A DNA stretch of 64,000 nt from Candidatus Nitronauta litoralis (GTDB taxonomy: Bacteria; Nitrospinota; Nitrospinia; Nitrospinales; Nitrospinaceae), in the NCBI GenBank assembly GCA_015698285.1, contig CP048685.1:558001-622000 (forward strand). The letters run 5' to 3'. The position numbers and the translations under genes are program-made. A model generated the notes under the pieces. The model saw only the letters and a list, made by a program, of their open reading frames with translations. It had not been told where the DNA came from and searched no databases. Positions 8,094 to 14,248 of the stretch are shown piece after piece. Each line of letters begins with the position of its first letter. Within the stretch, counting starts at the first letter, position 1.

Positions 8094-8315
8094 TTAAACT
8101 TCTTCCATCTTGTGGCCTTCAAGAGGCGCTTCTGCCAGCTCTTTAGACACACGGATGATTTCTTCGACAAACTTCTGGTATGCCCGGTCGATGTCCTTGT
8201 GCTGGGTCTGTTTGATGATTTTTTCCCCGTTGGCATCGATGTGCAAATCCAGCACATTAACACCCGGGGTCACATGATGTTTCCGAATTTCAACCTTGAT
8301 AGTATTGACTTCCAT
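8094..8315 (-). CDS. Small soluble protein of unknown function, 73 aa
   Basis: The product is a 73-residue acidic/basic mixed protein with two strand-like segments (T-I-K-V-E-I-R and V-L-D-L-H-I-D) followed by a long helix. A clear ribosome-binding site, GGAGAG, precedes the ATG. No family is recognised. It sits downstream of flagellin on the same strand and converges with the FleQ-like gene, so a link to the flagellum is possible but unproven. An intrinsic terminator follows it, and its leader contains nested inverted repeats (8335-8414). Confidence 0.6.
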   Translation of the reverse strand: MEVNTIKVEIRKHHVTPGVNVLDLHIDANGEKIIKQTQHKDIDRAYQKFVEEIIRVSKELAEAPLEGHKMEEV

Positions 8316-8334: not shown

Positions 8335-8414
8335 GCAGCTTTCAGGATGTATTTCTGGGAACTTATAAAAACTGTTTCCGGCCTCGTGCAGATTCGTGGT
8401 TTCCAGAAAGCTGC
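8335..8414 (-). promoter_or_regulatory. Nested, mutually exclusive inverted repeats in the leader of the small gene
   Basis: The outer arms are GCAGCTTTC (8335-8343) and GAAAGCTGC (8406-8414), a perfect 9-base repeat. The inner arms are TTTCTGGGAAC (8352-8362) and GTTTCCAGAAA (8399-8409), 10 of 11 paired. The right arms share bases 8406-8409, so both stems cannot form fully at once. That is the layout of a switching or attenuating leader for the gene at 8094-8315, but no known riboswitch class is recognised. Confidence 0.35.
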
Positions 8415-8594
8415 AGGTGGCCCAGACAGAATAAATCAAACTATTTAAGACCTTCTTAATTATCATTTAGAGGCAGATGGGTCAAGCCCAAACTCCACGG
8501 CAATTATTTGAAGCTATGATGGGAGTATAGGATAGCAAAATAAGGGGAATTCTTGCCCATGAAGGATGCAGCCCGCTGCCCGTCAGGCGAGGAC

Positions 8595-9446
8595 TCAGGT
8601 GTTAATGTTGAGCAGGCGGCCGATGTTGCTTTCGTTCGATTGAGTCTGGAGGGCCAATGCACGCACGGAAGATTCTATACGCAGCAGGGAGTTGTTCAAT
8701 TCTGAAATACCTGCAGCGATGTCGGTTCCAGCGATTTCATTGCGGCTCGATTCCAGATTGACCAGCGTGTTGCGCGTGTTGCGTGAGGTGATTTCGAGAC
8801 GATTGGACAAAGCGCCTACCTCCCCCCGGGTGTTGATCACCGTCTGCTGGGCCTGGCCCAGTTGATCAAATGCCTGCAAGGCGTTTTGCGAAGTCAATAC
8901 GTCGAGGTTGTCAATACCCAGACTTTGGGTACTGGTTTCATCAATCACATTCAGGTTGATCTGGTTTTCCGGCCCGCTCTCTATACCCACCTGGATGTCG
9001 ACCTGGTTGGGAGAGTTCGGCGCCAGGTTCCCGTCGAGAATATTTTGCCCGTTAAATTCCTGAGTTCCCGATACCCGGTCGATCTCTGTCAATATCTGGG
9101 AAAACTCGGCGTTGATGGTCTCCCGTTCCGCATCACCCAGCGTTCCGTTGGCCGCTTGAATAGCAAGTTCCCTACCTCGGCCGATCAAATCGGAAATTGT
9201 CGACAGTCCCCCTTCAGCGACGCGAATAAAATTTCCTCCGGTTTCGATGTTTCGCACTGACTGGCTCAAGGCGGCGATATCTGACCGCAGTCCTTCGGAA
9301 ATGGCAAGACCCGCAGCATCTACACTGGCATTGACCAGGCGATTGCCTGATGCCAGTTGTGAAAGGCGAGTGAGAAGCCCCTCCTGATTTCGGTTGATAG
9401 TGTTCAGGATCCGGGTGGTGGATCCGGAATCAATGATCCCTGCCAT
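8595..9446 (-). CDS. fliC: Flagellin
   Basis: The 283-residue product has the conserved N-terminal flagellin core (R-L-S-Q-L-A-S-G-N-R-L-V-N-A-S-V-D-A-A-G), the R-E-L-A-I-Q-A-A-N-G motif and the C-terminal helical core with R-N-E-I-A-G-T-D-I-A. These ends pack together in the filament core. The variable middle domain is short, giving a compact flagellin similar in size to those of other environmental bacteria. It has a strong ribosome-binding site (AAGGTG) and a consensus promoter at 9481-9508. No FliS or FlaG chaperone gene is obvious next to it, although unknown genes flank it. Confidence 0.93.
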   Translation of the reverse strand: MAGIIDSGSTTRILNTINRNQEGLLTRLSQLASGNRLVNASVDAAGLAISEGLRSDIAALSQSVRNIETGGNFIRVAEGGLSTISDLIGRGRELAIQAANGTLGDAERETINAEFSQILTEIDRVSGTQEFNGQNILDGNLAPNSPNQVDIQVGIESGPENQINLNVIDETSTQSLGIDNLDVLTSQNALQAFDQLGQAQQTVINTRGEVGALSNRLEITSRNTRNTLVNLESSRNEIAGTDIAAGISELNNSLLRIESSVRALALQTQSNESNIGRLLNINT

Positions 9447-9480
9447 AGCGTCACCTTCTGATGAAATAGGTTTCTAATAA

Positions 9481-9508
9481 ATTATAGGCTGACCTGATTT
9501 ATTGTCAA
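9481..9508 (-). promoter_or_regulatory. Flagellin promoter, consensus sigma-70 overlapping a sigma-28-like -10
   Basis: On the minus strand TTGACA (9508-9503) and TATAAT (9486-9481) are separated by 16 bases, a perfect sigma-70 match. The same site reads GCCTATAA, one base from the sigma-28 -10 GCCGATAA, with TTGA 15 bases upstream where TAAA would be expected. The promoter may be read by either or both sigma factors. Confidence 0.6.
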
Positions 9509-9584
9509 ACTCCCCGCACGCCAGCTCCTCTATAAGGGTTTGGCAACCTGTAATGTGTCAGACTTATCTTCCATAAGGTGTAGA

Positions 9585-9613
9585 TTGCAAACGCGCGGTT
9601 TGCCCGATACAAT
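9585..9613 (+). promoter_or_regulatory. Promoter with an operator-like palindrome in its spacer
   Basis: TTGCAA (9585-9590) and TACAAT (9608-9613) are 17 bases apart and would drive the gene at 9648. The palindrome GCAAAC-GCGCG-GTTTGC at 9587-9603 lies over the -35 element and spacer, a typical position for a repressor site. Confidence 0.45.
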
Positions 9614-9647
9614 AGCCTGTGTTTTCAATCATTTTCGATAGGTTCGT

Positions 9648-10259
9648 ATGAAACTTTTTATTAATGGTGAAGAAATCTCTGACACGGTTGCCGAGTCCGA
9701 ATTGGGCCCTCTATTAGAGAGGCTCTTACAGGAACGACAATCCCTCGGCCTCCATATTATGGGTCTCAGATTGAACGGTGAAGAAATTGCTATTGACAGT
9801 GAAGGAGTTTTTAAATTACCCCTCAATCTTGAAGATCGAATTGAAGTCGAATTCGCACCTATTGAGGCGCTCATTGCCCGTAATATAGAGAATGCCAGTG
9901 AATACCTTGAGCGTCTTTTACCGGGTTTTGAAAAAGCCGCCGAACTGTTTCGTATGGGCAACGAACAGGAAGCCAACGAATTTTTCCTCGAAATTATTGA
10001 CGGCATTGAATGGTTTTCCGAAGTAGTCGATTCGATAATAGACGCCACTGGCCAGGAACCAGCCGCACTGAATTTGGGCAAAGAAACACTCCAGGGCCGA
10101 AAAGAACGCCTGCTTGGCTACACCACCCAGATGGTGGAAGCCAACCAGAATAGAGACTGGGTCCTTTTAGCAGACCTTCTGGAATATGAATTGACTCCCT
10201 TTTACGAAGAATGGCAAACCCTGCTCCCAAAACTTCTACCCCCAACCCAGCCCAACTAA
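9648..10259 (+). CDS. Acidic protein of the flagellar locus, unknown function, 203 aa
   Basis: Residues 1-70 look like a small beta-rich fold (M-K-L-F-I-N-G-E-E-I-S and R-L-N-G-E-E-I-A-I-D). They are followed by a long helical domain of about 120 residues and a proline-rich end. The composition is acidic and lacks a signal peptide, which fits a cytoplasmic chaperone or regulator. I do not recognise a family. It diverges from flagellin and sits upstream of two sigma-28 promoters, so a role in flagellar assembly is the best guess. A transcript from the minus-strand sigma-28 promoter at 10470 could run antisense into it. Confidence 0.65.
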   Translation: MKLFINGEEISDTVAESELGPLLERLLQERQSLGLHIMGLRLNGEEIAIDSEGVFKLPLNLEDRIEVEFAPIEALIARNIENASEYLERLLPGFEKAAELFRMGNEQEANEFFLEIIDGIEWFSEVVDSIIDATGQEPAALNLGKETLQGRKERLLGYTTQMVEANQNRDWVLLADLLEYELTPFYEEWQTLLPKLLPPTQPN

Positions 10260-10321
10260 TTGTTTTTTAATTAGTTTCTAGCGTTCAAGAAAAAAACACC
10301 CAAAAAATCATCATCCCACCC

Positions 10322-10348
10322 TAAAGTTTTCATTATTTTTGCCGATAA
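10322..10348 (+). promoter_or_regulatory. Perfect sigma-28 (FliA) flagellar promoter, plus strand
   Basis: TAAA at 10322-10325, a 15-base spacer and GCCGATAA at 10341-10348 match the flagellar sigma-28 consensus exactly. Transcription would start near 10355 and continue through a leader of about 270 bases into the acidic protein gene at 10625. Confidence 0.8.
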
Positions 10349-10353
10349 GAACG

Positions 10354-10455
10354 TCAGGAGACCGTGTAACCTAGTTTGACGGCTTGTATGTGTCCCTGTA
10401 TTTCAACCTTTACCTTTTTATTTTTTTGAGGTGAGGGAGGGAAAAAGGATTCCAT
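10354..10455 (-). CDS. Candidate 33-residue microprotein under sigma-28 control
   Basis: The frame begins with ATG at 10455, preceded by AGGG, and ends with TGA at 10354. It encodes a basic peptide with P-P-S-P-Q-K-N-K-K near the start and G-H-I-Q-A-V-K-L-G-Y near the end, which reads like a folded strand-helix sequence rather than random translation. A perfect sigma-28 promoter on the same strand (10496-10470) would start about eight bases before the ATG. The stop codon lies just downstream of the opposing plus-strand sigma-28 promoter. No homologue is recognised and expression is inferred only from the promoter. Confidence 0.45.
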   Translation of the reverse strand: MESFFPPSPQKNKKVKVEIQGHIQAVKLGYTVS

Positions 10456-10469
10456 TCGCCCTGAACAAC

Positions 10470-10496
10470 TTATCGGCGCATGAAGAAAAGACTTTA
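10470..10496 (-). promoter_or_regulatory. Perfect sigma-28 (FliA) flagellar promoter, minus strand
   Basis: Read on the minus strand, TAAA (10496-10493), 15 bases and GCCGATAA (10477-10470) give an exact sigma-28 consensus. It faces the plus-strand sigma-28 promoter at 10322. The two sites also share flanking bases (TAAAGT, GATAAG and a downstream TCAGG), so they may derive from one ancestral element. Confidence 0.8.
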
Positions 10497-10624
10497 ATGC
10501 TGTCTTGAAAAAAATAGAAGAAATACCCATAAATCAAGGATTTTAAAAACGGTTTTTATAAAGTTAAAGAAACTGCCCCCGGGGTCATAGAGTACTTCGA
10601 GGCAATATCTGGGGAGACAAGATC

Positions 10625-11401
10625 ATGGCTGAAACAGGTGATTTATCGGTTCAAAACCAAAATATCAATATTCCGGGACTTGAGAACGCTCGGCAGGTTC
10701 GGGAAGAAGATGTCCAGAATGAAGAGATTGAAAACGATCGTGCGGAAGAAGCTCGACAAGCAGAAATTAGGCAGGAAGATATCGTCTCGGTCAATGAAAA
10801 TGGACCCGGCGCCATTGAACAGCAGGAAATCAGGGTGGAAGGGGAAACCCTTAACGTGCCCTCTCAGGATATCCAGGATAACCTTGGACAAAATATTGAT
10901 GATCGTTTCGAATTCAGCCAATCGGTTGCGGACCTGACTAACGCCGTTTCCCCAGTAAATGACAGGGCTGCAGTTGGTCAGAATGGACCGGAAAATGTCA
11001 ACGAGGCCTTTGAGCAGGCCGCTCCCGATCCGGATTCAGAAAACGTTGGCGGCAGCGGAGCGCAGATCGAAGCGGCAGCCGAAGCAAGTGTTCAACAACA
11101 GGCGGGGGCCCAGGGTTCCCTCGAAGTTCTGGAACCCGCTGCCTCTCAACCTGTTGACGAGGTAGATACCGGACCGGCCAATAACCCGGTCCAGGGTGGA
11201 AGCGCCGAAGGCCTCACAGAATCTGATGCCGGACTTGCTGCAACAAATACTGGCCGACCCAATGCAAACAATGAAATTTTAAGACAGTCAGTGGAAGAAG
11301 ACGCTGAGCAAAGGGCTGATCAGGAAAGTCAGGAAAACAGTCAGCGCGAGCCGGAAAGTGAAGTGACTAACCGCGGACAGAACGTTGACCGTCTGGTCTA
11401 A
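10625..11401 (+). CDS. Acidic low-complexity protein, sigma-28 regulated, unknown function
   Basis: The 258-residue product is rich in Glu, Gln, Asn, Asp and Ala, has almost no hydrophobic core, and ends in N-V-D-R-L-V. The ribosome-binding site GGGGAGA is strong. There is no signal peptide or known domain; the sequence looks intrinsically disordered. The sigma-28 promoter at 10322 places it among late flagellar genes, so it might be an exported flagellar component, a cap- or hook-associated protein, or a regulator. It lies between flagellin and the FliD-like gene. Function cannot be assigned from sequence. Confidence 0.7.
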   Translation: MAETGDLSVQNQNINIPGLENARQVREEDVQNEEIENDRAEEARQAEIRQEDIVSVNENGPGAIEQQEIRVEGETLNVPSQDIQDNLGQNIDDRFEFSQSVADLTNAVSPVNDRAAVGQNGPENVNEAFEQAAPDPDSENVGGSGAQIEAAAEASVQQQAGAQGSLEVLEPAASQPVDEVDTGPANNPVQGGSAEGLTESDAGLAATNTGRPNANNEILRQSVEEDAEQRADQESQENSQREPESEVTNRGQNVDRLV

Positions 11402-11803
11402 TGAAAGGATCAAGTTACGAATTGAAGAAAAGGACCGCTTAAGTTTAATAAATTGAGGACTGTTTTATAGAAAAGGAAATGGGAAAGCAGTAACTTGAAA
11501 ATTGAAAGGCAGTTTTTTTGAGGTTCAACTGACACGTTGGTAGTTGAGCCGAAGTAAAGACGTGCCAGCGTGCTCCGGTACTGGGGAGGAAAGAGCACGC
11601 CGGCATACGGTGCGCATAGCATTGTCCAAACACCGACCGTCTTATATAGGCATTGGAATGTTTATTCCTGGGTCGTTTGGGTGATGAACCGTTCTTCGGC
11701 TTGAAGTCGCGGGCGTGTCCATCACCCTCTCAGGGTCTATATCGGCTGTGGCGAGAAAAATCTTTACGCCCAATCGATTACAAGCCCTGGGATTTTTCGG
11801 CCC
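11402..11803. other. Noncoding gap with two strong consecutive hairpins
   Basis: No convincing gene lies in this gap. Hairpin 1 pairs GGTTCAACT (11522-11530) with AGTTGAGCC (11542-11550). Hairpin 2 pairs TGCCAGCGTGCTC (11563-11575) with GAGCACGCCGGCA (11593-11605) around a 17-base loop, with one mismatch. Neither is followed by a T run. The pair could be a structured leader for the FliD-like gene, a processed small RNA, or a weak terminator of the previous gene. A weak minus-strand sigma-28-like site (TAAA, 16 bases, GCCGATAT) lies at 11766-11739. Confidence 0.45.
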
Positions 11804-13579
11804 ATGCAAATACCCAGCGTCACCGGTCTGCCCTTATCCCGGCTGAAGGCTCCCATATCTCGTGAACGTAATACGGGAGATGCCGAAACGGCTGGATTCG
11901 GTCAGGTAACAACCCGCACAACTCCTGCACCGCGATCAACTGATCGCCCGGGTGTCAGTCTCCCTGCGCTCCCGTTTTATTCTAATTCCTCCGGAAACCC
12001 CAATACCTTAGTCGTTTCCGCTACCCTCAATCCGCAGCGGGTGGAGTCCGCCCAAAACGGATTCAGGCAATCCATACGCAACCGTCTGGAAGACCTGAGT
12101 GAAAGGGTCGGCGCTCTGCTGGGTGAAGGAGATTTCACCACAAGAAATACCCGAATTTCCATTCCCGAAGTTTTAAACGTCACTCCCGGCAATCAGACTC
12201 CCCTCGATCAATTCAATTTCAGCTCGACTCGTTTGTCCAGCGGACAAGTGCTGGCTTCCGACCGGTTCACTTCAGGTTCTGCGCTGAACTTAAACGGCAG
12301 TTTTGGAATCAATGGGGTGACCGTAACCGTGGAATCCATGGATGGGCTGTCCAACATCCGCGACAAAATCAATCGAGGTGAAGACACCAACGGCAACGGA
12401 ATCCTCGATGGGCCGGAAGATCTCAATGCCAACAATCAGATCGATATTATCGATGTTGAAGGCAGTGAACAGGGTCCAGGAAAGTTCATTGTCGAGGATA
12501 TAAACGGCAACGGGGTGCTCGACCCGGATGAAGACAGGAACAATAATGACCGGCTTGATGGGGGCACAGAGGAAAACCGGGTGGTGGCTGGCCTCACCAA
12601 CGACCGCCTGATTCTCAGCAGTGAAACCGGAGGTACTTCGGCTATTGCTCTCAGTGATCCGGACGGTGTGTTACTGGCGCTGGGTTTTTTCGAGCTCAAC
12701 GCCAAGGGACGCCCCATCCAGAAGGAAGCGCAATTTGATTTCGACCGGCAAACACCCACCAATCTCAACACTACACCACAGACCGCGAGTCTTGAGATCA
12801 ATGGAGTCACTCAGGAAAGTGATACTGATGATTTCACCGAATCTATTGAAGACGCGGTGGTGGAATTAAAGAAAACTTCCGATAACGACATAGAAGTGCG
12901 TGTGGTATTCGACTCTGAAAATGCCGTAGAGCAAATCATCAGTATCGCGGATGATTTCAACAGGGTTATCCGGGAAACCCGCCGTGTTGAAGAGGGCAAT
13001 CCTCCTGTTGTAGACGACCCGGAAATTACCAGGGTACAAAATACCCTGACTCAGGGCACGGACGAGGGATCTGATTCTAAAGATGCCTCTGCTCCCGAAG
13101 ACATCCTGAACACATTCGACCGCATCACGCCCCCGGTTTCCGGTCAACCATTGAAGGATGCAGGTGTCCTCAAATTCGGAGAGTTTTTTATCTCTGATTC
13201 TGCGCAATCGATTGAAGACGGCATCCGCACCGAGCCGCCTGAAAACACCAGCCTTCTGCCAGATCTATTTAAAAAAATAGGCATCCGGTTTCTGGAAGAT
13301 GAAACCCTGGAAATTGAGAAACCTGTTCTCGAGGAGGCATTCCAAAACGACTTTGATCAGGTGCGGGATCTGTTTTTTAATGAGGCCACGGGCCTTTTAC
13401 CTCAGATTCAGGAAAAGCTGGAAGGACTTCTCAACACCGACTTCGGACCACTGGCCTTATCCAGTGATCCGGCCGAATCAACGACACAACCCCCTACAAA
13501 CCAATTCAACCAGTTAAGGGCAGTAATCGATTCTCTGGATCAACTAAACCAGGAACGCAATCTGCTCGCAATCGTGTGA
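11804..13579 (+). CDS. fliD: FliD-like flagellar cap protein with calcium-loop insertion
   Basis: The 591-residue protein shows FliD features. There is an N-terminal segment followed by G-L-S-N-I-R-D-K-I-N (residues 181-190), a strand region with N-D-R-L-I-L-S-S-E-T-G-G, a V-E-L-K-K-T-S segment and a helical C terminus with N-Q-L-R-A-V-I-D-S-L-D-Q-L. FliD caps the growing flagellar filament and helps flagellin polymerise. The unusual part is residues 194-255, where four EF-hand-type loops occur: D-T-N-G-N-G-I-L-D-G-P-E, D-L-N-A-N-N-Q-I-D, D-I-N-G-N-G-V-L-D-P-D-E and D-R-N-N-N-D-R-L-D. They split the normal FliD N-terminal region and probably bind calcium. A FlgN-like chaperone gene follows. 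Confidence 0.75.
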   Translation: MQIPSVTGLPLSRLKAPISRERNTGDAETAGFGQVTTRTTPAPRSTDRPGVSLPALPFYSNSSGNPNTLVVSATLNPQRVESAQNGFRQSIRNRLEDLSERVGALLGEGDFTTRNTRISIPEVLNVTPGNQTPLDQFNFSSTRLSSGQVLASDRFTSGSALNLNGSFGINGVTVTVESMDGLSNIRDKINRGEDTNGNGILDGPEDLNANNQIDIIDVEGSEQGPGKFIVEDINGNGVLDPDEDRNNNDRLDGGTEENRVVAGLTNDRLILSSETGGTSAIALSDPDGVLLALGFFELNAKGRPIQKEAQFDFDRQTPTNLNTTPQTASLEINGVTQESDTDDFTESIEDAVVELKKTSDNDIEVRVVFDSENAVEQIISIADDFNRVIRETRRVEEGNPPVVDDPEITRVQNTLTQGTDEGSDSKDASAPEDILNTFDRITPPVSGQPLKDAGVLKFGEFFISDSAQSIEDGIRTEPPENTSLLPDLFKKIGIRFLEDETLEIEKPVLEEAFQNDFDQVRDLFFNEATGLLPQIQEKLEGLLNTDFGPLALSSDPAESTTQPPTNQFNQLRAVIDSLDQLNQERNLLAIV

Positions 13580-13595
13580 TTTAACAGAGGACTCA

Positions 13596-14021
13596 ATGGA
13601 AATCATTTTTGAAAATTTAAAACAACAAAAAAACTGCTACCAGCAATTACTGATCCACCTCGGAGAACAGCAGGAGGCGGTCGCAAATCAGGATGATGAA
13701 GGGCTGATGAATGCCATTAAGAAAAAGAACGAATACGTCCAGGCTCTCCATAAGCTTGAGCAGGAAATGAATACTCGACTGGACCAGATGGGGGATAGCG
13801 AGCGCGAAAAGGTAGCACGGGAAACAGAAACTTTGCGAGGAGAAATTGTCCTTTCCATTGAAAAGCTCATCGCCGGTGAGGAGGAATCCCGAAAAGCCAT
13901 CGCGCAACAACGAGACGAACTGGAAGACCAGATTAAACAGTTCAAAAAAACGAAGAACCTGTTCAAAGGTTATCAGGATCCATCCTCGTCAAAGGGTGGC
14001 GGATTTAAAGGCAATGCGTAA
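13596..14021 (+). CDS. FlgN-like flagellar export chaperone
   Basis: The 141-residue protein is almost wholly helical with heptad-like spacing (residues 1-125) and a flexible glycine/serine tail. The pattern of repeated L and K at the start, Y-x-x-L-L near residue 17, and a middle with L-E-Q-E-M-N-T-R-L-D-Q-M fits the FlgN/FliT class of chaperones, which bind hook-associated proteins before export. The position 17 bases after the FliD-like gene and the AGAGGA ribosome-binding site support one operon. Sequence similarity in this family is low, so FliT is an alternative. Confidence 0.6.
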   Translation: MEIIFENLKQQKNCYQQLLIHLGEQQEAVANQDDEGLMNAIKKKNEYVQALHKLEQEMNTRLDQMGDSEREKVARETETLRGEIVLSIEKLIAGEEESRKAIAQQRDELEDQIKQFKKTKNLFKGYQDPSSSKGGGFKGNA

Positions 14022-14059: not shown

Positions 14060-14248
14060 ATGGATCTTTCAATACAGAAAGTATCACAGATATTCAGAAC
14101 CTATCGAAAGCAGGAAAGGATTGCCGAGCTCAATCGACAGTCCAGCCTGAAAACTGTTCAGCAGCAGCAGGATCAGGTGAGTATCTCCACTAAGGCCCGT
14201 GAACAATTACAAGCAGGTAAAACCGAGGGTACAGAAAAAAGCATTTAA
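14060..14248 (+). CDS. Small flagellar-locus protein with a DQVSIS-T-K-A-R motif
   Basis: The 62-residue protein has a basic helical N terminus and a Q-V-S-I-S-T-K-A-R-E-Q-L segment. The pattern V-S-I-S-x-x-A recurs in FlgM and in small FlgM-associated proteins of deltaproteobacteria. The protein lacks the C-terminal anti-sigma helix of FlgM, so it is probably not a complete FlgM. It is the last gene of the FliD/FlgN cluster and is likely co-transcribed. Its role may be in flagellar regulation, but this is a guess from context. Confidence 0.5.
   Translation: MDLSIQKVSQIFRTYRKQERIAELNRQSSLKTVQQQQDQVSISTKAREQLQAGKTEGTEKSI

Follow-up and report, generated by a model that had tools for sequence, protein, structure and literature searches.

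The window, a stretch of 64,000 nucleotides from Candidatus Nitronauta litoralis, contains a flagellar operon whose leader carries two predicted sigma-28 promoters that face each other. The operon's first gene, Y (10625-11401, plus strand), encodes an acidic, low-complexity and fast-evolving protein of 258 residues with no family match. It is followed on the same strand by fliD2 (11804-13579), which encodes a second FliD-like filament-cap protein (FliD_C, 49.9 bits with a cut-off of 25.4), and by the gene of a FlgN/FliT-like flagellar chaperone (13596-14021; FlgN, 34.5 bits with a cut-off of 30.5). In most genomes of the order FliD_C is matched twice, strongly by the canonical gene at another locus and more weakly by the one that corresponds to fliD2. 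A 62-residue gene at 14060-14248 is also conserved in the operon and has a weak match to an FlgM-associated family (E 0.034, below the cut-off). The leader itself spans 10350-10624 on the plus strand. To the left of the promoters lies X (9648-10259, plus strand), a conserved protein without a family match. Its structural model (mean pLDDT 87.4) has a four-helix bundle after a beta-grasp domain, and its fold has no match in the PDB at E <= 0.001, the best being a ThiS at E 0.014. Left of X and divergent from it is a flagellin-like gene with Flagellin_N and Flagellin_C domains (8595-9446, minus strand), and further left a small gene (8094-8315). Both X and the flagellin-like gene are preceded by sigma-70-type promoters, at 9585-9613 on the plus strand and at 9508-9481 on the minus strand (12/12), respectively. 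The latter is a perfect TTGACA-N16-TATAAT site, and the gene lacks a promoter of the sigma-28 type.

The two leader promoters are exact matches to TAAA-N15-GCCGATAA, P1 (TAAAGTTTTCATTATTTTTGCCGATAA) at 10322-10348 on the plus strand and P2 (TAAAGTCTTTTCTTCATGCGCCGATAA) at 10470-10496 on the minus strand. The initial annotation had described them as two perfect sites, each pointing into the interval, with 121 bases between the -10 elements; both are exact, and the -10 elements end at 10348 and 10470, in agreement with that distance. Compared with the longer motif TAAAGTT-N12-GCCGATAAG, P1 (10322-10349) matches at 16 of 16 positions and P2 (10469-10496) at 15, and both have the -35 and -10 elements of sigma-28 promoters at the proper spacing. 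Measured between these 28-mers, the interval is 119 bases here and 62-225 bases across relatives. From the usual distance between -10 and +1, transcription from P1 is inferred to begin at about 10355-10357, and the predicted start of P2 is at about 10461-10463; the P2 site itself lies about 130 bases before the start codon of Y. A region of about 107 bases (10356-10462, by the same estimate) would thus be transcribed on both strands and give the two RNAs complementary 5' ends; its sequence is not conserved between genera. The overlapping transcripts proposed initially are supported by this facing geometry of the predicted promoters.

With up to one mismatch allowed, P1 and P2 are the sole matches in the window, where 0.29 would be expected; two matches were reached in only 2 of 100 shuffles. 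The whole genome (3.92 Mb, one contig) contains three exact matches to TAAA-N15-GCCGATAA and none to the reversed control pattern. The third precedes the main flagellin gene (285 residues) by about 200 bases, and the genome has a FliA-type sigma factor gene that scores above the curated cut-off, so the motif can be taken as the sigma-28 motif of this organism. Sites with two mismatches are found upstream of a second flagellin gene and before a 61-residue frame (locus L039, 1586-1771), which may be akin to the small YjfB-type motility proteins.

Conservation of the facing pair

The pair was scored as present when a plus-strand and a minus-strand site each matched TAAAGTT-N12-GCCGATAAG at 12 or more of the 16 positions. 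Altogether it is found in the leader of the Y-fliD2-flgN-like operon in 44 of the 47 genomes of the order that have the stretch in one piece, representing 11 genera and three families (all four totals are a hand tally). The relatives are metagenome-assembled genomes or other assemblies, nearly all named Nitrospina, Nitrospinaceae, Nitrospinae or Nitrospinota, and one Nitrospirae. The 47 leave out 12 genomes of the order with neither a FliD2 match nor the pair, four in which a contig ends within the stretch (G006, G011, G031 and G051) and one with P1 and P2 on separate contigs (G023). X is found in 45 of 64 genomes of the order, adjoining flagellar genes. At 33 of these 45 loci (the window included) both sites lie within 600 bases past X, and their orientation is always facing. 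A further nine genomes, in which X is absent or elsewhere, have the facing pair upstream of fliD2, five of them in the sister genus, which is without X; in another two the pair is present but with a spacer of 14 or 16 bases. P1 heads the Y operon in the relatives too, which supports its assignment in the initial annotation as the probable promoter of the acidic gene at 10625.

The three exceptions differ in kind. G012 has lost Y together with the pair, and has no FliA above the cut-off. G013, the sole member of a fourth family, has a short leader with no P2, and a facing site of 14/16 lies instead between Y and fliD2. In G034 fliD2 was not found and Y is directly followed by the chaperone-like gene; here P1 still scores 14, but P2 reaches no more than 11 through decay, with a -10 that reads GCCCAAAAG, while four congeners score 14-15. 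Two genomes with an intact pair, G016 and G018, carry an extra minus-strand sigma-28-like site just before fliD2, besides P2. These single or few cases point the same way, to an opposed sigma-28 promoter placed between P1 and fliD2. The minus-strand sites before fliD2 in G016, G018 and G013 (L120, L121 and L200) score 14-15 of 16, and the one in G013 overlaps a strong palindrome followed by a run of T.

P1 is usually the better match of the two. Mean scores are 14.6 for P1 and 13.6 for P2, and among 42 units P1 is stronger in 28, equal in five and weaker in nine; in genus g4 the -10 of P2 departs from the consensus in several members (TTCGTTAAG). Mean anchored identity across the 42 units is 0.79 for the P2 core (a value inflated by the choice of sites by score), 0.50 for the spacer and 0.36 for the 40 bases downstream. 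Between genera the inter-promoter sequence is near random. By chance, a minus-strand site of at least 12 occurs in 1.4% of composition-matched 250-base stretches (143/9900), and the remaining parts of the loci have 51 such sites in 841,344 positions. The genomes are related and the counts are not independent, so they describe one old arrangement that has been maintained rather than 44 events. The strength of the argument lies in the fact that everything around the promoters has changed and the promoters have been kept, which suggests that selection acts to preserve a pair of opposed promoters that share one sigma factor.

The arrangement is largely confined to this operon. Among 29 flagellin loci with enough upstream sequence (one of 30 had too little and was dropped), a sigma-28-like site is present in 21, and a facing partner within 350 bases in only one of these, or in one of 18 when three sites that overlap the ribosome-binding sequence are omitted (L227, L228 and L229). 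Canonical fliD loci have the facing pair in none of 20. Three more distant genomes of the class have a FliD2 match, and all three have a P1-like site before it; none has a facing site of at least 12 (best 11, 9 and 9 of 16). Because these distant genomes have a P1-like site without P2, it is probable that P2 arose in the order's common ancestor.

Possible products and roles of P2

One possibility is that P2 matches the motif by chance or is inert, or that it is one arm of an invertible element. The motif is short, yet we consider this very unlikely, as the pair is present in 44 of 47 genomes, far above the 1.4% expected by chance. Nor do the two promoters behave as arms of one element: P1 and P2 are no more alike within a genome than between genomes (spacer identity 0.425 and 0.44, respectively; flanks 0.31 and 0.324), and this argues against an invertible switch. 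The two promoters of one genome resemble each other at promoter positions only, near-identical inverted repeats are lacking, and the interior of the interval keeps one orientation throughout the aligned genus g4. The initial annotation had P2 drive a 33-residue basic microprotein (10354-10455, minus strand). The frame exists, with an ATG, 13 bases past the promoter 28-mer, and AGGG nearby, but it is most likely not a gene, and of all the readings considered this one has by far the smallest chance of being correct. The AGGG would fall at about the first transcribed base, which puts the ribosome-binding sequence at the very 5' end of the RNA. The frame is also the 3' part of a longer one (10354-10530) with an in-frame upstream ATG. 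On the minus strand of the 42 units there is no shared open reading frame: the closest relative has 12 codons, the next has none at that place, and the frame is conserved in no unit. Of what that proposal joined, the two promoters are kept in relatives (44 of 47 genomes) and the small frame is not. A role further to the left is improbable as well. In the window P2 points antisense at X, as the initial annotation noted, with the minus-strand flagellin-like gene further along in the same direction, and a consensus scan of 8400-11900 found no intrinsic terminator; in genus g2 the left neighbor is on the minus strand. P2 could then act antisense to X in the manner of an excludon, or as a distant promoter of the genes at 8595-9446 or 8094-8315. 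However, the pair is retained where X, the flagellin-like gene or the small gene is absent or elsewhere. Antisense control of X is not what has been conserved, as the nine genomes with X absent or elsewhere still have the pair at Y-fliD2. The same applies to P2 as promoter of the flagellin-like gene, which has its own perfect sigma-70 promoter here and was not found near the pair in, for example, L022, five g16 units and five g9 units. The pair is thus tied to the Y-fliD2 operon, and of the earlier proposal it is the general idea of antisense control, moved inside the leader, that survives.

Two further readings place the function in the RNA made from P2. Sigma-28-dependent small RNAs are described in Campylobacter (PMC4626219) and E. 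coli (PMC10578931), and within genera the predicted P2 RNA is fairly well conserved over its initial ~25 bases, as with AAGTATCCTTTT in g4 and g16. Against a trans-acting small RNA, these sequences are not alignable between genera (downstream identity 0.36), a folding-based scan of the 42 units gave no consistent terminator, and no Rfam family was matched, the best matches lying far below the gathering score. The marks of a discrete RNA, namely a terminator and a sequence or structure that is kept, are thus not seen for the P2 product. Since none of these is conserved across genera, the flagellum-linked RNA suggested initially loses ground in its trans-acting form, which we consider improbable. 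RNAalifold with column shuffles, applied to seven groups on both strands, revealed no shared fold. Most z-scores are within about -2.5, and the 11 sequences of genus g4 give -1.6 and -0.05; the exceptions are g16 on the plus strand (-4.6, n=5), g2 on the minus strand (-3.3, n=5) and g11 on the minus strand (-3.0, n=4), and in such genera a structured RNA may be formed. In the g16 leader fold (plus strand; L090, L091, L101, L104 and L106; z -4.6), the -10 of P2 pairs with a downstream ATCGATAAG. A cis-acting antisense RNA is somewhat easier to reconcile with the data, although still unlikely. It would base-pair with the ~110 nt at the 5' end of the Y-fliD2 mRNA and act after transcription, through RNase III cleavage, altered stability, or the exposing or hiding of leader structure. 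In every one of the 42 units the facing geometry makes the 5' ends of the two predicted RNAs complementary, and regulation by overlapping 5' UTRs is known (PMC7154746). However, the ribosome-binding site of Y is well outside the overlap, on its downstream side (P2 is ~130 bases before the Y start), neither strand has a shared fold, and there is no shared terminator that would define a discrete antisense RNA.

A candidate brake on the cap operon

Conservation covers the two promoters and their facing orientation but not the intervening sequence, so that any effect would most likely arise from the process of transcription. The reading that we favor, with a probability of roughly one half, is that P2 damps or shapes the output of P1 by transcriptional interference, perhaps helped by the complementary 5' leaders. 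The facing pair would then probably be a built-in brake or tuner of the Y-fliD2 operon. Polymerases that start at P2 would collide with those from P1, dislodge them or occlude them, either in the interval of 62-225 bases (119 here) or by crossing P1 itself. A rising level of sigma-28 would raise drive and brake together, and because both promoters share one sigma factor the brake would scale with the drive. The output of the cap protein, which is needed in few copies, would be limited or delayed, and the flagellin promoters, without a facing partner, would run freely. The higher match score usual for P1 fits damping better than shut-off. Single genomes lend some support to the proposed interference: G034, where P2 has decayed alongside the loss of fliD2, and G013, where a facing site before fliD2 takes the place of the leader P2. 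A more specific and more tentative proposal, to which we give about one chance in three, is that the leader is a self-limiting module with sigma-28 as its sole input, which drives the cap operon and, through the facing promoter of that leader, its own brake as well, and that this module has persisted since the order's ancestor. If this is true, a capped or pulse-like response to sigma-28 would set the dose of cap protein relative to flagellin without a regulator protein or a specific RNA sequence. It offers a possible answer to how few cap proteins and thousands of flagellins are made from the same sigma factor.

The closest known arrangement is that of B. subtilis helD and pps: convergent promoters precede these genes, and the stronger, antisense one represses the sense one (PMC12802891). 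An antisense RNA of ~90 nt is made, and similar arrangements are described upstream of 18,798 genes (PMC12802891). The likeness is that a single gene has two facing promoters in its leader, here in 44 of 47 genomes, and that the arrangement recurs in many genomes; the repression by transcriptional interference reported there, along with a short antisense RNA (PMC12802891), is of the kind proposed here. The promoters of helD and pps are, in that account, of the housekeeping type and linked to a rifampicin signal, whereas both promoters here are sigma-28 promoters of a flagellar operon (PMC12802891). The search pattern used there places 45-55 bases between the -10 elements (PMC12802891), a range outside which the present pairs fall, with 62-225 bases between 28-mers. 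The antisense promoter is the stronger one in helD and pps (PMC12802891), while by match score P1 is the stronger in 28 of 42 units here. P2 is on average weaker than P1, unlike the helD antisense promoter, and the interference may therefore be mild. What appears to be new is the conserved, convergent module that uses sigma-28 only; control by convergent promoters as such is already known, as in helD and pps.

Other systems share single features. In the excludon, as described for Listeria mogR, opposed transcripts also overlap at their 5' ends near flagellar genes (PMC7154746). The antisense RNA of an excludon doubles as the mRNA of a neighbor, whereas the left neighbor here varies and is mostly in antisense (PMC7154746). 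This doubling is not a conserved feature of the present loci, where in most cases X is the left neighbor and lies in antisense, and several genomes with the pair lack the gene beyond it. The mogR promoters are under different regulators, with SigB on one side, unlike the pair here (PMC7154746). E. coli FliA has intragenic and antisense promoters, including one that gives an antisense RNA at hypD (PMC4183435). Like P2, as predicted, these are sigma-28 promoters that give antisense RNAs (PMC4183435). In the part of that report which describes them they are intragenic and not reported to face a second FliA promoter, whereas P2 is intergenic, opposed and kept across the order (PMC4183435). In the open-licence PMC literature we found no description of facing sigma-28 promoters. 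The pR and pL promoters of phage 186 stand face to face and interfere with each other in a lysis-lysogeny switch with protein regulators. They are likewise facing and interfering, but belong to a phage switch; here the setting is a chromosomal flagellar operon and the interference is proposed. The face-to-face promoters of phage 186 are also named in the discussion of the helD work (PMC12802891). Antisense promoters of sigma factors are often treated as noise; P2 has been kept order-wide while its surroundings changed. In every case it faces a promoter read by the same sigma factor and belongs to a single operon, and it provides a clean test case for transcriptional interference as a conserved form of regulation.

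Both promoters share TCAGG a few bases past the -10, in the form GATAAG-N3-4-TCAGG (10341-10360 and 10455-10477 in the window). Many P1 and P2 starts of the relatives have a similar TCAGG or TTAGG, which perhaps reflects an initiator preference.
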